Origin: Hyphomicrobium facile | GTDB taxonomy: Bacteria; Pseudomonadota; Alphaproteobacteria; Rhizobiales; Hyphomicrobiaceae | Assembly: GCF_900116175.1 (NCBI RefSeq) | Contig: NZ_FPCH01000001.1 | Coordinates: forward strand, 932,501-996,500 | DNA length: 64,000 nucleotides | Direction: 5' to 3' | Shown here: positions 24,897-33,667 of the stretch, piece by piece | Layout of the letters: each line of letters begins with the position of its first letter | Numbering within the stretch: position 1 is the first letter of the stretch | Made by a program: the position numbers and the translations under genes | The notes under the pieces: model-generated | Told to the model about the DNA's origin: nothing | What the model saw: only the letters and a program-made list of their open reading frames with translations | Database searches by the model: none

Positions 24897-24913
24897 TTTA
24901 GAACCGTTCGAAA
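24897..24913 (+). promoter_or_regulatory. Irr box (ICE-type iron-responsive operator)
   Basis: TTTAGAA-CCG-TTCGAAA matches the alphaproteobacterial Irr (ICE) consensus TTTAGAA-N3-TTCTAAA with one mismatch. It starts immediately after the predicted -10 element, where a bound repressor would block initiation. Irr is known to control suf operons in Rhizobiales and binds when haem/iron is low or, at other promoters, activates; here the position suggests repression. Confidence 0.6.
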
Positions 24914-25041
24914 TACTGGGTCCTGGCTCGTTTACAAAAGGCATTGGATCAGGGCGGCTCTCTTAGCACAGTCCGGGGTGCCGGGCGCAAGGTTTGGATT
25001 CCGTTGCCACTTGGGGCGACGATAGTCCGGAGAATAGAAAC

Positions 25042-26613
25042 GTGGAATTGACGACCAAAGGCCGGTACGCGGTCATGGCCATGGCCGATCTCGCCGGGCA
25101 TGCCGATGAGGGCGCGATAGCGCTATCGGTCGTCGCTGAGCGGCAGAGCCTGCCGCTCGCCTATCTCGAGCAACTTTTCGTGCCACTTCGCCGCGCTGGT
25201 CTCGTCGAAAGCGCCCGCGGCCGGTCCGGCGGTTACCGGCTTTCCAAGCGTGCCGCGGAAATCTCGATTGCTGCGGTCATGGATGCGGTCGAGGAAGACA
25301 CGCGATTCACCCGTTGCTCGCATAACGATCCGCGCTGCTCTGCCGCGACGCCTTGTGTCACGCATTGGCTTTGGAGCGCGCTCAGTGAGTCGACGGGGCA
25401 GTTCCTGGCTTCCGTCAATCTCGCCGACGTCATTGCAGGCGGGCGATATTCGTCGCGGCCGGCTTTCGCAGCCGCTGCCGCGCGGCCGGCGGGCATGCGG
25501 ACATATCTCGATTATAATGCCACGGCGCCGCTTCGGCCCGAGGCCAAGGTTGCGATGATCGCGGCGCTCGACGTCGTCGGCAATGCTTCGTCGGTTCATG
25601 CGGAAGGACGTCGCGCTCGCGCGGTCGTCGAGGGGGCGCGCGAAAGCGTCGCGCGCCTGATCGGCGCCAAGCCGTCCGAAATTGTTTTCACGAGCGGCGC
25701 GACGGAAGCCAACAACTGGGTCATGGCGCAGCCGTGGACGTCGATTTTGACGAGCGGCGTCGAGCACGATTCGGTTCTCGCGCCGGTCCGTTCTTCGCGC
25801 AGCGAAATCATTATGCTGCCGGTCGACCGGAACGGCGTGGTCAGCGCCAAAGACGTCAGCGAGCAGGTATCGTCGCGGAGCTTTGCGGGGCCATCCCTTC
25901 TTGCGCTTCAGCTCGCCAACAATGAAACCGGCGTCGTTCAGCCTGTCGCGGAAATCGCGGAGCTGGCGCGCTCGCATGGGCTCAGTGTGCATACGGATGC
26001 TGTGCAGGCGGCCGGCCGGATGGCGATCGATTTCGCCGCACTCGGTGTCGATACGCTTGCGCTCTCCGCGCACAAATTGGGCGGGCCCAAAGGTATTGGC
26101 GCCTTGGTCATTCGCGACCATATAGATCTTGTGCCCTTACTTCGGGGCGGCGGGCAGGAACGACGGCGGCGGGCGGGAACAGAGAACGTCGCGGCAATCG
26201 CCGGATTTGGCGCAGCGGCGGAAGCCGCGCTTCGCGACTTGCAGGCTGCAGCGGCCATCAGCGCCTTGCGGGATGAGTTCGAGGCCGACCTGAAACGCAT
26301 CAGTCCGGATGTGGCGATCATCAGCGAAGGCGCGACACGCCTCGGAAATACGACAGCGTTGGCGCTTCCCGGCAAGCTCGCCGAGACACTGGTCATCAGG
26401 TTGGATCTCGCCGGAATCGCTGTAAGCGCCGGATCGGCTTGCTCATCGGGCAAAGTCGGCGCGAGCCATGTTCTCGAAGCGATGGGCCTCGGTCACGACA
26501 TTGCCGCGGGCACCATCCGCATCAGTCTCGGGCCGACGACGACGAAGGACGATATCGCGGCATTTCTGGCTGCGTGGACGACGATCGCAGGGGCATCAGC
26601 GCTCGCTGCGTAA
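25042..26613 (+). CDS. IscR-type Rrf2 regulator fused to NifS-like cysteine desulfurase
   Basis: One uninterrupted 523-aa frame encodes two proteins that are normally separate. Residues 1-150 are an IscR-like Rrf2 winged helix (ELTTKGRYAVMAMADLAGHA, ARGRSGGYRLSKR) with the Fe-S ligand set C92-x6-C99-x5-C105-x2-H108. After a roughly 15-residue Ala-rich linker, residues 152-523 start MRTYLDYNATAPLRPEAK. They form a class V PLP enzyme with PLP-Lys345 in LSAHKLGGPKG and catalytic Cys467 in SAGSACSSG. GTG at 25042 has GGAG about 9 nt upstream. The ATG for residue 152 (25495) could serve as an internal start giving a free desulfurase. It heads the suf operon behind the Irr box. Confidence 0.88.
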   Translation: MELTTKGRYAVMAMADLAGHADEGAIALSVVAERQSLPLAYLEQLFVPLRRAGLVESARGRSGGYRLSKRAAEISIAAVMDAVEEDTRFTRCSHNDPRCSAATPCVTHWLWSALSESTGQFLASVNLADVIAGGRYSSRPAFAAAAARPAGMRTYLDYNATAPLRPEAKVAMIAALDVVGNASSVHAEGRRARAVVEGARESVARLIGAKPSEIVFTSGATEANNWVMAQPWTSILTSGVEHDSVLAPVRSSRSEIIMLPVDRNGVVSAKDVSEQVSSRSFAGPSLLALQLANNETGVVQPVAEIAELARSHGLSVHTDAVQAAGRMAIDFAALGVDTLALSAHKLGGPKGIGALVIRDHIDLVPLLRGGGQERRRRAGTENVAAIAGFGAAAEAALRDLQAAAAISALRDEFEADLKRISPDVAIISEGATRLGNTTALALPGKLAETLVIRLDLAGIAVSAGSACSSGKVGASHVLEAMGLGHDIAAGTIRISLGPTTTKDDIAAFLAAWTTIAGASALAA

Positions 26614-26668: not shown

Positions 26669-28138
26669 ATGGCTGCTGTTCAGGAGACAATCGATCACGT
26701 TCGGAAGATCGATGTCGACCAGTACAAGTACGGTTTCGAGACGGTGATCGACAGCATCCGGGCGCCGAAGGGCCTCGATGAATCGACCGTGCGCTACATC
26801 TCGGCCAAAAAGGGCGAACCGGAGTGGCTTCTGAATTGGAGGCTCGAGGCATTCACCCGCTGGAAGGCAATGACCGAGCCGACTTGGGCGAAGGTCCGCT
26901 ATCCGAAGATCGATTTTCAGGATCTGTATTACTACTCGGCGCCGAAATCGACCGAGGGGCCGAAGAGCCTCGCCGAAGTCGATCCGGAGTTGCTGGAGAC
27001 CTATAAGAAGCTCGGCATTCCGCTCAAGGAGCAGGAAATTCTCGCGGGCGTGACGTCGTCGCGCGTCGCGGTCGATGCCGTGTTTGACAGCGTTTCGGTC
27101 GTCACGACGTTCAAGGACGAGTTGAAGAAGGCTGGCGTCATCTTCTGCTCGATCTCGGAAGCCGTGCGCGAGCACCCCGAGCTCGTGAAGAAGTATCTCG
27201 GCTCGGTCGTGCCGCAGTCGGACAACTTCTATGCGTCGTTGAACTCGGCGGTGTTCTCTGACGGCTCGTTCGTGTACGTGCCGGAAGGCGTGCGCTGCCC
27301 GATGGAGCTTTCGACGTATTTCCGCATCAACGCGAAGCAGACGGGACAGTTCGAGCGCACGCTGATCATTGCCGATCGCGGCGCGTACGTATCCTATCTC
27401 GAAGGTTGCACCGCGCCGATGCGCGACGAAAACCAGCTGCACGCAGCGGTCGTCGAGCTTGTGGCGCTCGACGATGCCGAGATCAAATACTCAACGGTGC
27501 AGAATTGGTATCCGGGCGACGCGCAAGGCAAAGGCGGCATCTATAACTTCGTGACGAAGCGCGGGGATTGCCGCGGTCATCACTCGAAGATCTCGTGGAC
27601 GCAGGTGGAAACCGGTTCAGCGATCACGTGGAAGTATCCGAGCTGCATTCTGCGTGGCGACTATTCACGGGGCGAGTTCTATTCGATCGCGGTTTCGAAC
27701 GGCTATCAGCAGGTCGACAGCGGAACGAAGATGATCCATCTCGGCAAGAATTCGTCGAGCCGCATCATCTCGAAGGGCATTGCGGCGGGCTATTCGGAGA
27801 ATACCTATCGCGGTCTCGTGTCGGCGCACCGGAAGGCGACAGGCGTTCGCAACTTCACGAACTGTGACTCGCTGCTCATCGGCGACAAGTGCGGTGCGCA
27901 CACCGTGCCTTACATCGAAGCGAAGAACTCGAGCGCGCACTTCGAACACGAGGCGACGACGTCGAAGATTTCGGACGACATGCTGTTCTACTGCCGCCAG
28001 CGCGGGCTTTCGTCGGAAGAGGCGATTGCGCTCGTCGTCAACGGCTTCGTCCGCGATGTGCTGCAGCAGCTGCCGATGGAGTTCATGGCTGAATCGCAGA
28101 AGCTTATCGGCATCTCGCTTGAAGGAAGCGTGGGATGA
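26669..28138 (+). CDS. sufB: Fe-S cluster scaffold protein SufB
   Basis: The 489-aa SufB is the core scaffold of the SufBCD complex on which Fe-S clusters are built. Recognisable parts are the N-terminal [33 protein letters not shown], the beta-helix core ([39 protein letters not shown]) and [20 protein letters not shown], with the cysteine and histidine-rich core residues. ATG at 26669 is the expected start; an upstream in-frame TTG at 26624 is rejected. It lies 55 nt after the fused regulator/desulfurase. Unusually, sufC does not follow directly: two reverse-strand genes intervene. Confidence 0.95.
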
Positions 28139-28254: not shown

Positions 28255-28662
28255 CTATTTGTTGGCTTGCCGCACGTTCGCGAGAAATTGCCGTCCTTCT
28301 TCGCTGCTCACGACCTCAGCGTGCGTGAAGTCGTTGTTGCTCATCACGACATAGACTGGGTGATTTGCGGCGGCGACGCTTATCCCAGCATCGCTCGAAA
28401 CCCCATAGTCGCTCTTTCCGGCGAGCTTGACGCGAACGTTGTGATTCCCCGCCACTACGTTGGTGCGGAGCGCGTCGCAGATTTTCAAGTGTCCGACGAG
28501 CTTGCCATTGACGAAGACGGGACTGGACGAGCCAAAGGGGTCGGTTTTCCAGCCGGTCAAGATTTGGATCGGTGCGCACCGCGAAACGATGTAAAGCTCG
28601 CCGGCTTGGGCAGATTGGGCGAGGATCGTTGCAAAGGCGGCGATGGCGAAAGTGGTTTTCAT
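28255..28662 (-). CDS. small exported protein inserted in the suf operon
   Basis: The 135-aa product has a signal peptide (KTTFAIAAFATILAQSAQA). A beta-rich domain follows with FVNGKLVGHLKICDAL and TNVVAGNHNVRVKLAGKS, a layout like DUF2846-type proteins (surface-exposed V-x-G-x-x-V-G strand, then a G-x-H-x-V turn). I cannot name a function. It faces sufB (convergent) and shares its fold signature with the next minus-strand gene, suggesting an old tandem duplication. GGAG lies about 10 nt before the ATG. Confidence 0.7.
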   Translation of the reverse strand: MKTTFAIAAFATILAQSAQAGELYIVSRCAPIQILTGWKTDPFGSSSPVFVNGKLVGHLKICDALRTNVVAGNHNVRVKLAGKSDYGVSSDAGISVAAANHPVYVVMSNNDFTHAEVVSSEEGRQFLANVRQANK

Positions 28663-28689: not shown

Positions 28690-29139
28690 TCAATTCTTGG
28701 CCATGTTGGTAATTTCGCGAATGCCGACTTCCGCGGGAACCTCGCGGTATTCGACGTATTTGAAAAAGGTCAGCCGGATGTAGATCGGGGCGCCGGGCGG
28801 AACATTATAGTACGGCCCCTTCAATCCGAAGGCGCCCGCGAGGTCGACAAGCAGCATGGGCGATTTGACTTTGACTTCATGGCGTCCGGACGTGACCTCG
28901 AAGCGCCGATACTCGCAGCGCCCGATGTCTCCGACAGTGTTGCCATCGACGATGACGGAGTAGCGCTCTTTCAGTACATCGGGCGTCGGGATTTCGAGAA
29001 GGCACGGCCAGTACATGTTCAAGGCAGGGCCCGGCGCGCTCGCCAGGGCCGGCACTCGGATGCTCGCGTCAGGCCCCATCGCCGAGGAGCACCCAGTCGC
29101 AATCATAAGCGCAAGGATGCATCCCGGTATGCGCAGCAT
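28690..29139 (-). CDS. putative lipoprotein, paralogue of its neighbour, inserted in the suf operon
   Basis: Starting at ATG 29139, the 149-aa product has a lipoprotein signal ending MIATGC. The mature part contains VIVDGNTVGDIGRCEYRR and EVTSGRHEVKVKSPM, aligning by eye with the motif of the adjacent 28255-28662 protein, and a hydrophobic C-terminal segment APIYIRLTFFKYVEY. It resembles DUF2846-type lipoproteins; the function is unknown. The frame could extend to 29181, but that adds charged residues ahead of the signal. It is divergent from sufC, so the 179-nt gap must hold promoters for both. Confidence 0.7.
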   Translation of the reverse strand: MLRIPGCILALMIATGCSSAMGPDASIRVPALASAPGPALNMYWPCLLEIPTPDVLKERYSVIVDGNTVGDIGRCEYRRFEVTSGRHEVKVKSPMLLVDLAGAFGLKGPYYNVPPGAPIYIRLTFFKYVEYREVPAEVGIREITNMAKN

Positions 29140-29318
29140 GGTCCGAATTGGTCCCCCTCGATCTCGGGTCCAGTGCTGCATGGATGCCGTTATAACGTCA
29201 ACGGCCTAAGGGCGATTGCCGATGGGTCTGTGATCGGGAAGAAACAGCCAGCAAAACAGAAGTGAGTTGGCGCTCGGGTAAGAATTCAAACGGAAGTTCA
29301 TAGGAAACGGTCACTGAG

Positions 29319-30074
29319 ATGCTTGAGATTAAGAACCTGCACGTGAAGCTCGAGGATGAGGATCGGGAGATTCTCAAGGGGCTTTCGCTGACGGTGCCGA
29401 AAGGTGAAGTGCACGCTATCATGGGGCCGAACGGCTCCGGCAAGTCGACGCTTGCGTATGTGCTCGCGGGGCGCGACGGCTATGAAGTCACCGACGGCGA
29501 CATTCTTTGGAATGGCGAGTCGATCCTTGACATGGAGCCTGACGAGCGCGCCGCGAAGGGCGTGTTCCTGGCGTTCCAATATCCGATGGAAATTCCGGGT
29601 GTGGCCGGCCTGACGTTTCTCAGGACTGCGCTCAACTCCATTCGCAAGAAGCGCGGCGAAGCGGAGCTGACGACGCCTGCCTTCCTGAAGCTCGCGAAGG
29701 AGAAGGGCGCGAAGCTCAACATCGACATCGAGATGTTGAAGCGTCCGGTCAACGTCGGGTTCTCGGGCGGCGAGAAGAAGCGCTCGGAAATCCTGCAGAT
29801 GGGACTTCTCGAGCCGACGCTGTGCGTGCTCGACGAAACGGATTCCGGCCTCGACATCGATGCGCTGCGGATCGTCTCGGAAGGCGTCAACGCGCTTCGC
29901 TCGCCCGACCGCGCGTTCCTCGTCATCACGCACTATCAGCGGCTCTTGAATTACATCGTTCCGGACAAGGTGCACGTTCTCGCCGACGGGCGCATCCAGA
30001 AGACGGGCGGCAAGGAACTCGCGCTCGAACTCGAGAAATCCGGCTACGCTGAATATTCGAACAAGGCAGCGTGA
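29319..30074 (+). CDS. sufC: Fe-S cluster assembly ATPase SufC
   Basis: The 251-aa ABC-type ATPase energises the SufBCD scaffold. It has Walker [11 protein letters not shown]-loop [11 protein letters not shown], the SufC-specific signature [17 protein letters not shown], Walker [18 protein letters not shown] and the switch histidine in [12 protein letters not shown]. Its stop overlaps the sufD start (GTGA). As the first gene after the two-gene insertion it probably needs its own promoter, which I could not identify in the preceding gap. Confidence 0.95.
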
Positions 30075-31414
30075 ACATGAACGTAGCAGTCATGAAGACC
30101 AAGGCGGAGCAGGCCATCTCGGAAAGTTTCGAGGCGGCCGCCGCAAAGCTTCCGGGCAGCGCACCGGTGAAGGCGCGCCGTGCTGAGGCTATCGGCACGT
30201 TCGGTGGCCTCGGGCTTCCACACCGGCGGATCGAAGAGTGGAAATACACGGATCTGCGCGCCAACCTCAAAGAGGTGCTGCCAGCCGCCGTCGAGGATAA
30301 GACCCCGCTGAGCATCGGCGAACTCATCGTTGCGCTCGGGCCGTTGGCTCACGTCGACGCGCATCGCATCGTGTTCGTGAATGGTCACCATCGCGCAGAC
30401 CTCAGCGACATCGCGGATGCCAAGGGATTGGCGATCTCGACCATCGGGAAGGCGCTACAGTCGGCGTCGGAAGAGGCCGTTGCCAGCCTGGCTTCAACGC
30501 CAGCGGGCGGAGACGCCGTCGAGGCGCTCAACACGGCTTTCATGACCGACGGCGCAATCGTAGACGTCACCAAGGGCGCGTCGATCGCCAAGCCGCTGCT
30601 GATCGTTTTCGTTCGTGCGGGCTCAGAGGCGAACGCCGTTACCGTCCGGAATTTGATCACGGTCGGCGAAGGCGCCAGCGCGACCATCGTCGAAGCCAAC
30701 GTCGTGCTGCCGGGCGCTGTCCGCGACGCGCATCTCAATGTCCTCGCGGAAGTGTCGGTCGGGAAGGGCGCAACGCTCAATCACGTCCGGTCGGCGGTTG
30801 ATGAAGGCAAGTCGCTGCATCTTTCGAATTGCGAAGTGACGATGGCAGTTGATGCAACTTATCGTGGCTTCCAATTTTCATCGAACCTCGGCTTTGCACG
30901 GCATGGCGCCAACATTCTTTTCGACGGCGAAGGCGGCAAGCTCGATCTTTCGGGCGCGTATCTGGCGCGGGGCTCCGAGCACGTCGACAACACGCTCGTC
31001 GTCGACCATGCGGTGCCGCACTGCGAAAGCCGGGAGCTGTTCAAGGGCGTTCTCGACGGTCACGGCCGCGGTGTGTTCCAAGGCAAGGTCATCGTTCGGC
31101 CCGACGCGCAGAAGACGGACGGCAAGCAGATGTCGCAAGCTTTGATGCTGTCTGAAGATGCGGAGTTCGACTCAAAGCCCGAACTCGAAATTTACGCCGA
31201 CGATGTCGTTTGCGGTCATGGTACGACGAGTGCGGAACTCGATTCCGATCTTCTCTTCTACTGCCGCTCGCGGGGAATTCCTGAGAAGGAAGCCCGCGCG
31301 CTGATGATCGAATCGTTCATTGGTGAGGCGCTCGACAAGGTCGAGCACGAGGGGCTCAGAGAGGCGCTTGCATCGTATGCGATGCAGTGGCTCGGCCGCT
31401 CGCCACGCGGATAG
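30071..31414 (+). CDS. sufD: Fe-S cluster assembly protein SufD
   Basis: The 447-aa SufD pairs with SufB in the scaffold complex. It shows [19 protein letters not shown] near the N-terminus and a beta-helix core with [19 protein letters not shown]. The conserved end contains [42 protein letters not shown] and [20 protein letters not shown], with the functional cysteine/histidine CGHG. GTG at 30071 overlaps sufC by 4 nt; ATG at 30077 is also possible. It is 4 nt upstream of sufS, so translation is tightly coupled. Confidence 0.94.
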
Positions 31415-31418
31415 GCAT

Positions 31419-32702
31419 ATGGGACGCGAAACGTCGATTGATGTAGCGAGAAGCACGGCCTCGCACGCGGGGCTGACGGCGGCGCCTTATGACGTCGAAA
31501 GCATTCGGGCCGACTTTCCGATCCTCTTTCGCGAGGTGAACGATCGTCCGCTCGTCTATCTCGACAACGGGGCGTCGGCGCAGAAGCCGCTCTCCGTCAT
31601 CGAGGCGATGGATCACGCCTATCGCTTCGAGTACGCGAACGTGCATCGCGGGCTGCACTATCTCTCGAATACCGCGACGGAGCACTATGAGGCGGCACGG
31701 GAAACCGTGCGCCGCTTTCTCAATGCCGAGTACCAGGACGAGATCATCTTCACGCGCAATGCGACGAGCGCGATCAATCTCGTTGCGCGTTCGTTCGGCG
31801 AACCCCGGATCGGCGAGGGCGACGAGATCCTCATCACGATCATGGAGCATCATGCCAACATTGTGCCCTGGCACTTTCTGCGCGAGCGGAAGGGCGCCGT
31901 TCTGAAATGGGCGCCGATGACGGATAGCGGCGAGCTGATCATTGAAAAGCTCGAGAGCCTGATCACGAAGCGCACGAAGCTTGTCGCCGTTACGCATATG
32001 TCGAACGTGCTCGGCACGATCAATCCGGTGAAGGAGATCATCAGGATTGCGCACGCCAAGGGCGTGCCGGTTCTCGTCGACGGCAGTCAGGCCGCCGTGC
32101 ACATGGGCGTCGACGTTCGCGAACTCGATGCCGATTTCTACGTCTTCACCGGCCACAAGACGTATGGCCCGACGGGGATCGGCGTGCTTTACGCGAAGCG
32201 CCAACACCTCGCTGCCATGCCGCCTTACGAGGGCGGCGGCGATATGATCGAGACCGTGACGCTCGATAACGTGACGTACAACCAGCCGCCGCACCGGTTC
32301 GAAGCGGGCACCCCGGCCATCGTCGAAGCCATCGGCCTGGGTGCCGCGCTCAACTACATGATGCAGATCGGCCGAGAAAAGATTTCGCTCTACGAAGCGG
32401 AGCTTGGCGCTTACGCAGCGGAACGCTTGGCGGAACTACCGTGGCTGAAGCTCTACGGGACTGCGCCGGGAAAAGGCTCGATCTTTTCGTTCACGATCGA
32501 TGGTCTGCACCCGCACGACGTTTCGACGATCATCGACCGGTCCGGCGTCGCTATTCGCGCCGGTCATCACTGCGCGCAGCCTCTGATGGAGCGGCTTGGG
32601 GTTACCGCAACCTGCCGCGCGTCTTTCGCGTTGTACAACACAAAGGCCGAGGCTGACGCGCTGATGGTAGCGCTTACCAAAGCCCATGACCTTTTTACTT
32701 GA
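31419..32702 (+). CDS. sufS: cysteine desulfurase SufS
   Basis: The 427-aa class II PLP cysteine desulfurase supplies sulfur to SufBCD. Key parts are PLVYLDNGASAQKPLSVI, HRGLHYLSNTATEHYE, PLP-lysine in VFTGHKTYGPTG, and the catalytic cysteine in IRAGHHCAQPLMERLG. It is the second desulfurase in this locus: the fused IscR-NifS is a different, shorter-loop type. No sufE or sufU is present, so the sulfur-transfer partner is not obvious here. The start at 31419 follows sufD by 4 nt. Confidence 0.94.
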   Translation: MGRETSIDVARSTASHAGLTAAPYDVESIRADFPILFREVNDRPLVYLDNGASAQKPLSVIEAMDHAYRFEYANVHRGLHYLSNTATEHYEAARETVRRFLNAEYQDEIIFTRNATSAINLVARSFGEPRIGEGDEILITIMEHHANIVPWHFLRERKGAVLKWAPMTDSGELIIEKLESLITKRTKLVAVTHMSNVLGTINPVKEIIRIAHAKGVPVLVDGSQAAVHMGVDVRELDADFYVFTGHKTYGPTGIGVLYAKRQHLAAMPPYEGGGDMIETVTLDNVTYNQPPHRFEAGTPAIVEAIGLGAALNYMMQIGREKISLYEAELGAYAAERLAELPWLKLYGTAPGKGSIFSFTIDGLHPHDVSTIIDRSGVAIRAGHHCAQPLMERLGVTATCRASFALYNTKAEADALMVALTKAHDLFT

Positions 32703-32713
32703 GGAGCTTCCGC

Positions 32714-33205
32714 ATGGACGGGAAGCAGATTGAAGACCGCGCCGCCGTAAAGCAGGCGGTCGAAGCGCTAGACGCGCCGCCGACGTCGCCGCCGGATGGT
32801 GGCGTCGCTCCGGACCCCGTGCCGGACACTGCGACGTTTGAGCAAAAGACAACTGATCAAAATGCGGCGGCTCTGGCGACGGCGCTGCCGCCTGAAGAGA
32901 TCGAGCGGCTGACGAACGAAATCGTCGCCGCACTGAAGACCGTTTACGATCCCGAAATCCCTGCCGACATCTACGAGCTGGGATTGATCTACAAAGTCGA
33001 GATCGACGACGACCGCAATGTCGCGATCAACATGACCTTAACGGCTCCCGGATGCCCGGTTGCGGGGGAAATGCCGATCTGGGTTGAAAATGCCGTCAAT
33101 GCGGTTCCGGGCGTCGCGCAGACGAAAGTCGCCATCGTGTTCGATCCGCCTTGGGATCAGAGCCGGATGTCGGATGAGGCGCGCCTCGCTGTCGGCATGT
33201 TTTGA
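32714..33205 (+). CDS. sufT: SUF-associated protein SufT (MIP18/DUF59 domain)
   Basis: The 163-aa protein has an unstructured Pro/Ala-rich first third and then a MIP18 (DUF59) domain with VAALKTVYDPEIPADIYELG, LIYKVEIDD, and the conserved cysteine in NMTLTAPGCPVAGEMP, ending VFDPPWDQSRMSDEARL. SufT-type proteins help Fe-S cluster maturation of target proteins. ATG at 32714 follows GAGGAG with 8-nt spacing and starts 11 nt after the sufS stop. Confidence 0.92.
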   Translation: MDGKQIEDRAAVKQAVEALDAPPTSPPDGGVAPDPVPDTATFEQKTTDQNAAALATALPPEEIERLTNEIVAALKTVYDPEIPADIYELGLIYKVEIDDDRNVAINMTLTAPGCPVAGEMPIWVENAVNAVPGVAQTKVAIVFDPPWDQSRMSDEARLAVGMF

Positions 33206-33280
33206 GGACGCCCTCGCATTTGAGCCCCGAATTCCTATATGATGTGGCTGTTGCCACGACTCGCACATACGGAGGCCCGC

Positions 33281-33667
33281 GTGCCCTCGCTTAGAATAAT
33301 GCCAAAAGTCATGACCCTGACCGACGCCGCTGCGGCGCGCGTTTCCGCGCTCATTGCGCAGAAGCCCGGCGTCAAAGCCCTCAAGATCGGGGTGAAGAAG
33401 GGCGGCTGTGCGGGCATGGAATACACCATGACGTGGGCGGAAGAGATCGGGAAGTTCGACGAGATCATCGAGGAAAAGGGCGCCGTCGTCCTGATCGATC
33501 CGGCTGCGATGATGTATCTGCTCGGCACCGAGATGGACTACAAGACCGACAAGCTTTCTTCGCAGTTCGTGTTCAACAACCCGAACCAGAAGAGTGCATG
33601 CGGTTGCGGCGAGAGCGTCAATCTCGAGCCGGCAACGCCTCCTGGATTTGCTCCGGCCGAGGCGTGA
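33281..33667 (+). CDS. sufA: A-type Fe-S carrier protein SufA
   Basis: The 128-aa A-type carrier passes Fe-S clusters to apoproteins. It contains the fold motifs KIGVKKGGCAGMEYTMTW and AAMMYLLGTEMDY, and the C-terminal pair in SACGCGESVNL; the three cysteines of the A-type set are present. GTG at 33281 with GGAGG 6 nt upstream is preferred over ATG at 33239 or 33299. It closes the suf operon. Confidence 0.92.
   Translation: MPSLRIMPKVMTLTDAAAARVSALIAQKPGVKALKIGVKKGGCAGMEYTMTWAEEIGKFDEIIEEKGAVVLIDPAAMMYLLGTEMDYKTDKLSSQFVFNNPNQKSACGCGESVNLEPATPPGFAPAEA

Follow-up and report, generated by a model that had tools for sequence, protein, structure and literature searches.

Introduction

In Escherichia coli, the regulator IscR and the cysteine desulfurase IscS are separate proteins encoded in the isc operon, the first an Rrf2 protein with (Cys)3(His)1 ligands and the second a PLP-dependent desulfurase with a lysine and a cysteine. 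IscR is a homodimer, and its feedback is the model case for how cells sense their demand for iron-sulfur clusters; to our knowledge there is no settled answer as to how the cluster of the sensor itself is loaded relative to other clients. Enzymes that also regulate the genes of their own pathway are represented by the enzyme-repressors PutA and BirA, whose role is like the one we propose below and whose families and pathways are unrelated to those described here.

The closest described gene arrangement is the iscR-iscS-suf operon of Caulobacter crescentus and Rhodobacter sphaeroides, which has the same gene order as the locus studied here, with iscR and iscS as two genes and IscR acting on its own promoter, according to the respective reports (PMC11475020, PMC4618611, PMC6956336). 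In Rhodobacter, IscR binds the region of its own promoter (PMC4618611, PMC6956336), and the Caulobacter iscR promoter is both bound and repressed by IscR (PMC11475020). The nearest architectural analogue is the MocR/GabR family, in which a fold-type-I PLP domain is attached to a winged helix-turn-helix (PMC6677901). Here we describe a gene from Hyphomicrobium facile, located in a 64,000-nt stretch of DNA (the window), in which an IscR-type regulator and a cysteine desulfurase are encoded as one protein preceding suf genes.

A single gene encodes an IscR-type domain and a cysteine desulfurase

The initial annotation proposed that one uninterrupted frame at 25042-26613 (plus strand) joins IscR to a desulfurase, and translation bears this out: the frame is stop-free, begins with GTG, ends with TAA and encodes 523 residues, a predicted protein of about 55 kDa. 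Pfam places an Rrf2 domain at residues 3-132 (25048-25437, plus strand; E = 3.7e-35) and Aminotran_5 at residues 154-508 (E = 3.1e-62), both above cut-off, with the IscS/NifS-type desulfurase half running from residue 154 (25501-26610, plus strand). At E ≤ 0.001 the only further Pfam match was Beta_elim_lyase, which fell below its cut-off. The Rrf2 assignment is clear, with 121.4 bits against PF02082 (cut-off 30) and 120.4 against rrf2_super (cut-off 73.3). By Pfam the protein falls outside the MocR/GabR family, in which a GntR-type helix-turn-helix is joined to an aspartate-aminotransferase-type domain, whereas here an Rrf2 domain is joined to a class V desulfurase. The combination is a new domain architecture made from two known families.

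The best NCBIfam model for the first half is IscR, at 149.3 bits against an equivalog cut-off of 207.55. Four unfused IscRs of relatives score 164-184 bits and are also under the cut-off, which therefore does not discriminate the fusion; hence we use the label IscR-type. That the fused half scores below all four counts against a working regulator. The second half likewise scores best with NifS, at 341 bits, under the equivalog cut-off of 530.75 that would assign it to NifS/IscS, and three unfused desulfurases of relatives reach 297-329 bits, also under that cut-off. PDB relatives by sequence include the NifS-like 4ixo (3.7e-71) and IscR 4hf0 (2.5e-25), and in a search of its own genome the fused gene was the sole full-length match. 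AlphaFold, run with a 62-row alignment, predicts two confident folded halves separated by a low-confidence linker (mean pLDDT 88.7, pTM 0.73, residues 139-150 below 50). The best 50 Foldseek matches are all desulfurases and selenocysteine lyases that cover the desulfurase half alone, headed by IscS/NifS chains.

The fusion is found in one genus among the genomes searched

Sixty relatives were searched, of which 22, the source genome included, belong to one genus, Hyphomicrobium going by the titles of the records. All 22 carry the stop-free fusion, four of them as single-contig genomes (G002, G006, G007 and G017), and the length of the linker differs among the fused genes without the frame ever being lost. 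Two loci, L026 and L027 (genomes G012 and G004), carry about 20 inserted residues close to the Rrf2 N-terminus. Because this insertion follows the N-terminus, the match begins at residue 23 in G012 and 22 in G004; the frame extends upstream to VELTTKGRY in both, and L049 and L050, which are the same contigs, give fusions of 543 aa.

Outside the genus, iscR and iscS are adjoining genes, often with an ATGA overlap. Among the matches listed, no other stop-free row spanning both halves was present in the 81 non-genus genomes (24 genera) of a family sample of 103, and no stop-free fusion was present among 390 others in an order sample (397 genomes, seven of the genus) or 384 others in a class sample (385 genomes, only our own from the genus). 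The same was true of the 397 others in a phylum sample (398 genomes, again only our own from the genus). Under the E-value limits used, any match at all was returned for 371 of 397 order, 245 of 385 class and 60 of 398 phylum genomes; the four draws overlap, and a very divergent fusion could escape these searches. Among the matches listed, every row outside the genus that has both parts in one frame contains a stop (at least 5 in the order sample, at least 22 in the class sample and 17 in the phylum sample).

We also scanned named genomes and kept 80 loci, 28 of which match from residue 111 or later only. The 52 that match both halves divide into 15 fused and 37 unfused loci. Twelve of the fused records are titled Hyphomicrobium and three 'Proteobacteria bacterium', with several contigs shared with the genomes given G numbers here. 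The unfused loci also include records titled Hyphomicrobium (L056, L059, L067 and L069), and thus the fusion tracks the genome-based genus and not the name. Within the searches made, the combination is restricted to one genus, and our searches of open-licence papers turned up no account of an IscR-desulfurase fusion.

Two observations from these searches concern other frames. Among the matches listed, the 22 class-sample rows outside the genus with iscR and iscS in the same frame and a stop between them (e.g. G506:C1:1597256-1598842) have one TAG in 13 cases, one TAA in five and two or more stops in four. An in-frame amber stop at this position could let a fusion arise by rare read-through; the pattern may equally reflect shared descent or base composition. 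In another family of the order, a desulfurase match (G135:C3:533351-534493) lies within an 830-residue open frame, which is possibly another N-terminal extension or merely a long open frame.

Both halves are intact and under purifying selection

The C-x6-C-x5-C-x2-H ligand set noted at the outset is in place as C92 (25315), C99 (25336), C105 (25354) and H108 (25363) on the plus strand and, together with E43 and R59, is identical in all 22 fused rows. This differs from R. sphaeroides IscR, which has a single cysteine (PMC4618611). The desulfurase is complete, as had been claimed from K345 (26074, plus strand) and C467 (26440, plus strand), and these residues along with H242, D319, Q322 and R493 are kept in every row compared, 22 fused and 21 unfused; N294 is identical in all fused rows. 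We take the functions of these residues to be those assigned in E. coli IscR and IscS.

Omega, estimated for ten selected pairs of fused genes, was 0.03-0.20 in residues 1-80, 0.03-0.15 in residues 81-132, 0.07-0.17 in the desulfurase half and 0-0.64 in the linker. Across all 231 pairs, the ratio of mean pN to mean pS was 0.22, 0.34, 0.30 and 0.80 for the same four regions. Both halves are under purifying selection, which is far weaker on the linker, in agreement with the proposal of an intact regulator and an intact enzyme encoded as one polypeptide. We consider it likely that this is a genuine lineage-specific gene fusion, with a product that is most likely a bifunctional, self-regulating regulator-enzyme.

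In the mechanism we propose as the simplest, the N-terminal half would bind DNA and an iron-sulfur cluster and repress its own operon when clusters are abundant, and the C-terminal half would remain a catalytically active IscS-type desulfurase that supplies sulfur. Regulator and enzyme would be produced at a fixed 1:1 ratio and, if the protein stays uncut in cells, some of the enzyme would be located at the promoter of the operon. Cysteine desulfurases are homodimers (PMC8300815), and with some 20 residues of flexible linker between them both domains could dimerise within one chain pair. The tether may add nothing, may fix the stoichiometry, or may allow the sensor to be loaded in cis. In this last case the IscR domain would sense its attached desulfurase: sulfur delivered in cis would build or reload the cluster of the regulator, repression would follow local donation and not general cluster demand, and an IscS-type enzyme would be recruited to a suf promoter. 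We assign this extension a low probability. A genus that encodes sensor and sulfur donor as one molecule is a natural experiment on whether their proximity sets the response. The fusion may also attach a general sulfur donor to a protein that binds DNA.

The linker and its internal start codons

The linker spans residues 133-153 (25438-25500, plus strand). Its presence agrees with the initial annotation; its length, however, is about 20 residues and not about 15. The fusion might be translated and then cut in an exposed linker, releasing free IscR and free desulfurase and leaving the joining to do nothing but fix their ratio. The low-confidence model of the linker and its nearly unconstrained sequence favour this; however, no conserved cleavage motif is visible in the 22 linkers, and the unfused relatives are already closely coupled through the ATGA overlap. 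We consider cleavage unlikely.

A free enzyme could also come from internal initiation, which had been proposed for an ATG at 25495 placed exactly at the usual desulfurase start. The codon exists and lies three codons ahead of the YLD motif, but this is not the exact usual start: in 35 unfused loci the desulfurase start lies three to seven codons before YLD, at six in 23 and at three in only three, with starts chosen by a script that favours those near four codons before the motif. The ATG is present in three of the 22 fused genes and has a Shine-Dalgarno-like sequence in none of the three, so a conserved second product is unsupported. Other start codons occur in the linkers of some fused genes; three of them, in L015, L018 and L020, are preceded by GGAG, at positions that vary from gene to gene. 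A free enzyme may be made as a second product in single species.

Origin of the fusion

Quick trees were built for both domains, with 43 rows for the desulfurase and 41 for IscR, and in each tree all 22 fused rows fall to one side of a single branch. SH-aLRT support for this branch is 97 in the IscR tree and 84 in the desulfurase tree, where it was not starred, and we count the value of 84 against the regulator-enzyme reading. The grouping of fused sequences in both trees fits a single origin, without proving it. We examined 36 unfused loci. A desulfurase start could be recognised in 35, and in 19 of these 35 it overlaps the iscR stop as ATGA, GTGA or TTGA. We propose that a small change, such as an indel at an overlap of this kind, merged the frames, so that iscR and iscS, which lead the isc-suf operon of Alphaproteobacteria, would have lost the boundary between them in the common ancestor of a single Hyphomicrobium genus.

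The same overlap bears on whether joining has any consequence. The protein might work normally with its halves tethered by drift from the stop/start overlap, and the joining might be kept as harmless and without regulatory meaning. The 19 overlapping loci are one small indel short of a fusion, the linker is variable, and the fusion occurs in one genus only, among the samples searched and the matches listed. Against this, none of the 22 genomes shows a reversal, even though gain of a stop in the linker together with a start would split the gene; this point is weak. A neutral tether strikes us as rather improbable, and we retain the bifunctional regulator-enzyme as the preferred reading.

The fused gene encodes the only IscR-type protein found in the 22 genus genomes

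The Rrf2 half could instead have given up DNA binding and serve merely as an appendage to the enzyme, bearing a cluster or acting as a scaffold. The slightly lower score of the IscR half relative to unfused relatives fits this, as does our failure to identify an IscR operator upstream of the fused gene, which we count against a self-regulating protein. However, residues 1-80 are the most constrained part of the protein, E43 and R59 are kept throughout, and no other IscR-type protein was found. Above the Pfam cut-off, the 22 genus genomes encode 56 further stand-alone Rrf2 proteins, and the C-C-C-H pattern is absent from every one of these; the pattern recovers all 22 fused IscRs and 16 of the 19 unfused ones. 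Six weaker Rrf2 matches lay below the cut-off. A hidden unfused IscR was thus sought among these proteins and not found. We consider a non-binding appendage very unlikely. A sequencing or assembly error, which a small indel at the overlap seen in relatives would produce, is ruled out by the presence of the fusion in 22 genomes, four of them single-contig, with linkers that differ.

Most of the remaining class V matches in the genus are either of the SufS type or weaker. One second IscS/NifS-like desulfurase, a 402-aa frame with 40% identity (G006:C1:3506264-3507370), was the only one among the matches listed. The source genome also encodes a further SufS-type desulfurase on contig C5 (L002:325-2565), a 746-aa protein that matches the family 2A encapsulin cargo cysteine desulfurase model at 848.3 bits (cut-off 800).

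The suf operon and its upstream region

The fused gene heads a suf operon, all on the plus strand. It is followed by sufB (26669-28138, taking the ATG at 26669 in a frame open from 26624; NCBIfam SufB over cut-off), a sufC-like ABC ATPase gene (29319-30074; Pfam ABC_tran and place in the operon), a sufD-like gene (30071-31414; Pfam SUFBD_core) and sufS (ORF limits 31320-32702, with the true start probably further in; NCBIfam sufS 589 bits, cut-off 475.1). Genes for a SUF-associated, SufT-like protein (32699-33205; NCBIfam SUF_assoc over cut-off) and a SufA/IscA-type protein (33239-33667; TIGR00049 over cut-off, sufA_proteo 135.6 against a cut-off of 136.2) complete the series.

Upstream, an inverted repeat, TTAGAACCGTTCGAA (24898-24912), resembles an Irr box by pattern match. 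A repeat that fits the pattern with no mismatch lies 138-206 bases ahead of the start in 22 of 22 fused loci and is also present in 19 of the 36 unfused ones, which suggests putative control by Irr besides IscR. In published work, Irr binding was confirmed at P3 and not confirmed at the P1 and P2 regions. A second conserved element, TAGCAC..GGGGTG..GCAAG (24964-24991, plus strand), is a candidate promoter or operator, and elements of the TAGCAC..GGGTG type are present in all but one of the 22 fused loci and in 20 of the 36 unfused ones; by eye the 24964-24991 element has no obvious match to the Caulobacter IscR motifs. Because these elements are common to fused and unfused loci, the promoter region seems little altered by the fusion.

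Immediately 5′ of the Shine-Dalgarno sequence, an inverted repeat of 7 bp enclosing a 6-base loop (25002-25021, plus strand) occurs in 20 of 22 fused genes, L026 and L027 being the two without it. We tried this hairpin as a regulatory RNA and rejected it: 92.9% of cells are paired, but covariation is not clearly above that of shuffles (37 of 500 reach the score), and the best fold of 24985-25060 omits the hairpin (z = -1.1). Rfam at gathering level gave no match within the window.

Between sufB and sufC lie two minus-strand ORFs without a Pfam match, one signal-peptide-like (28255-28662) and one lipoprotein-like (28690-29181). Among the long loci fetched, both occur in L038 and L040 only, and L057 has a weak match to the 28255-28662 ORF.
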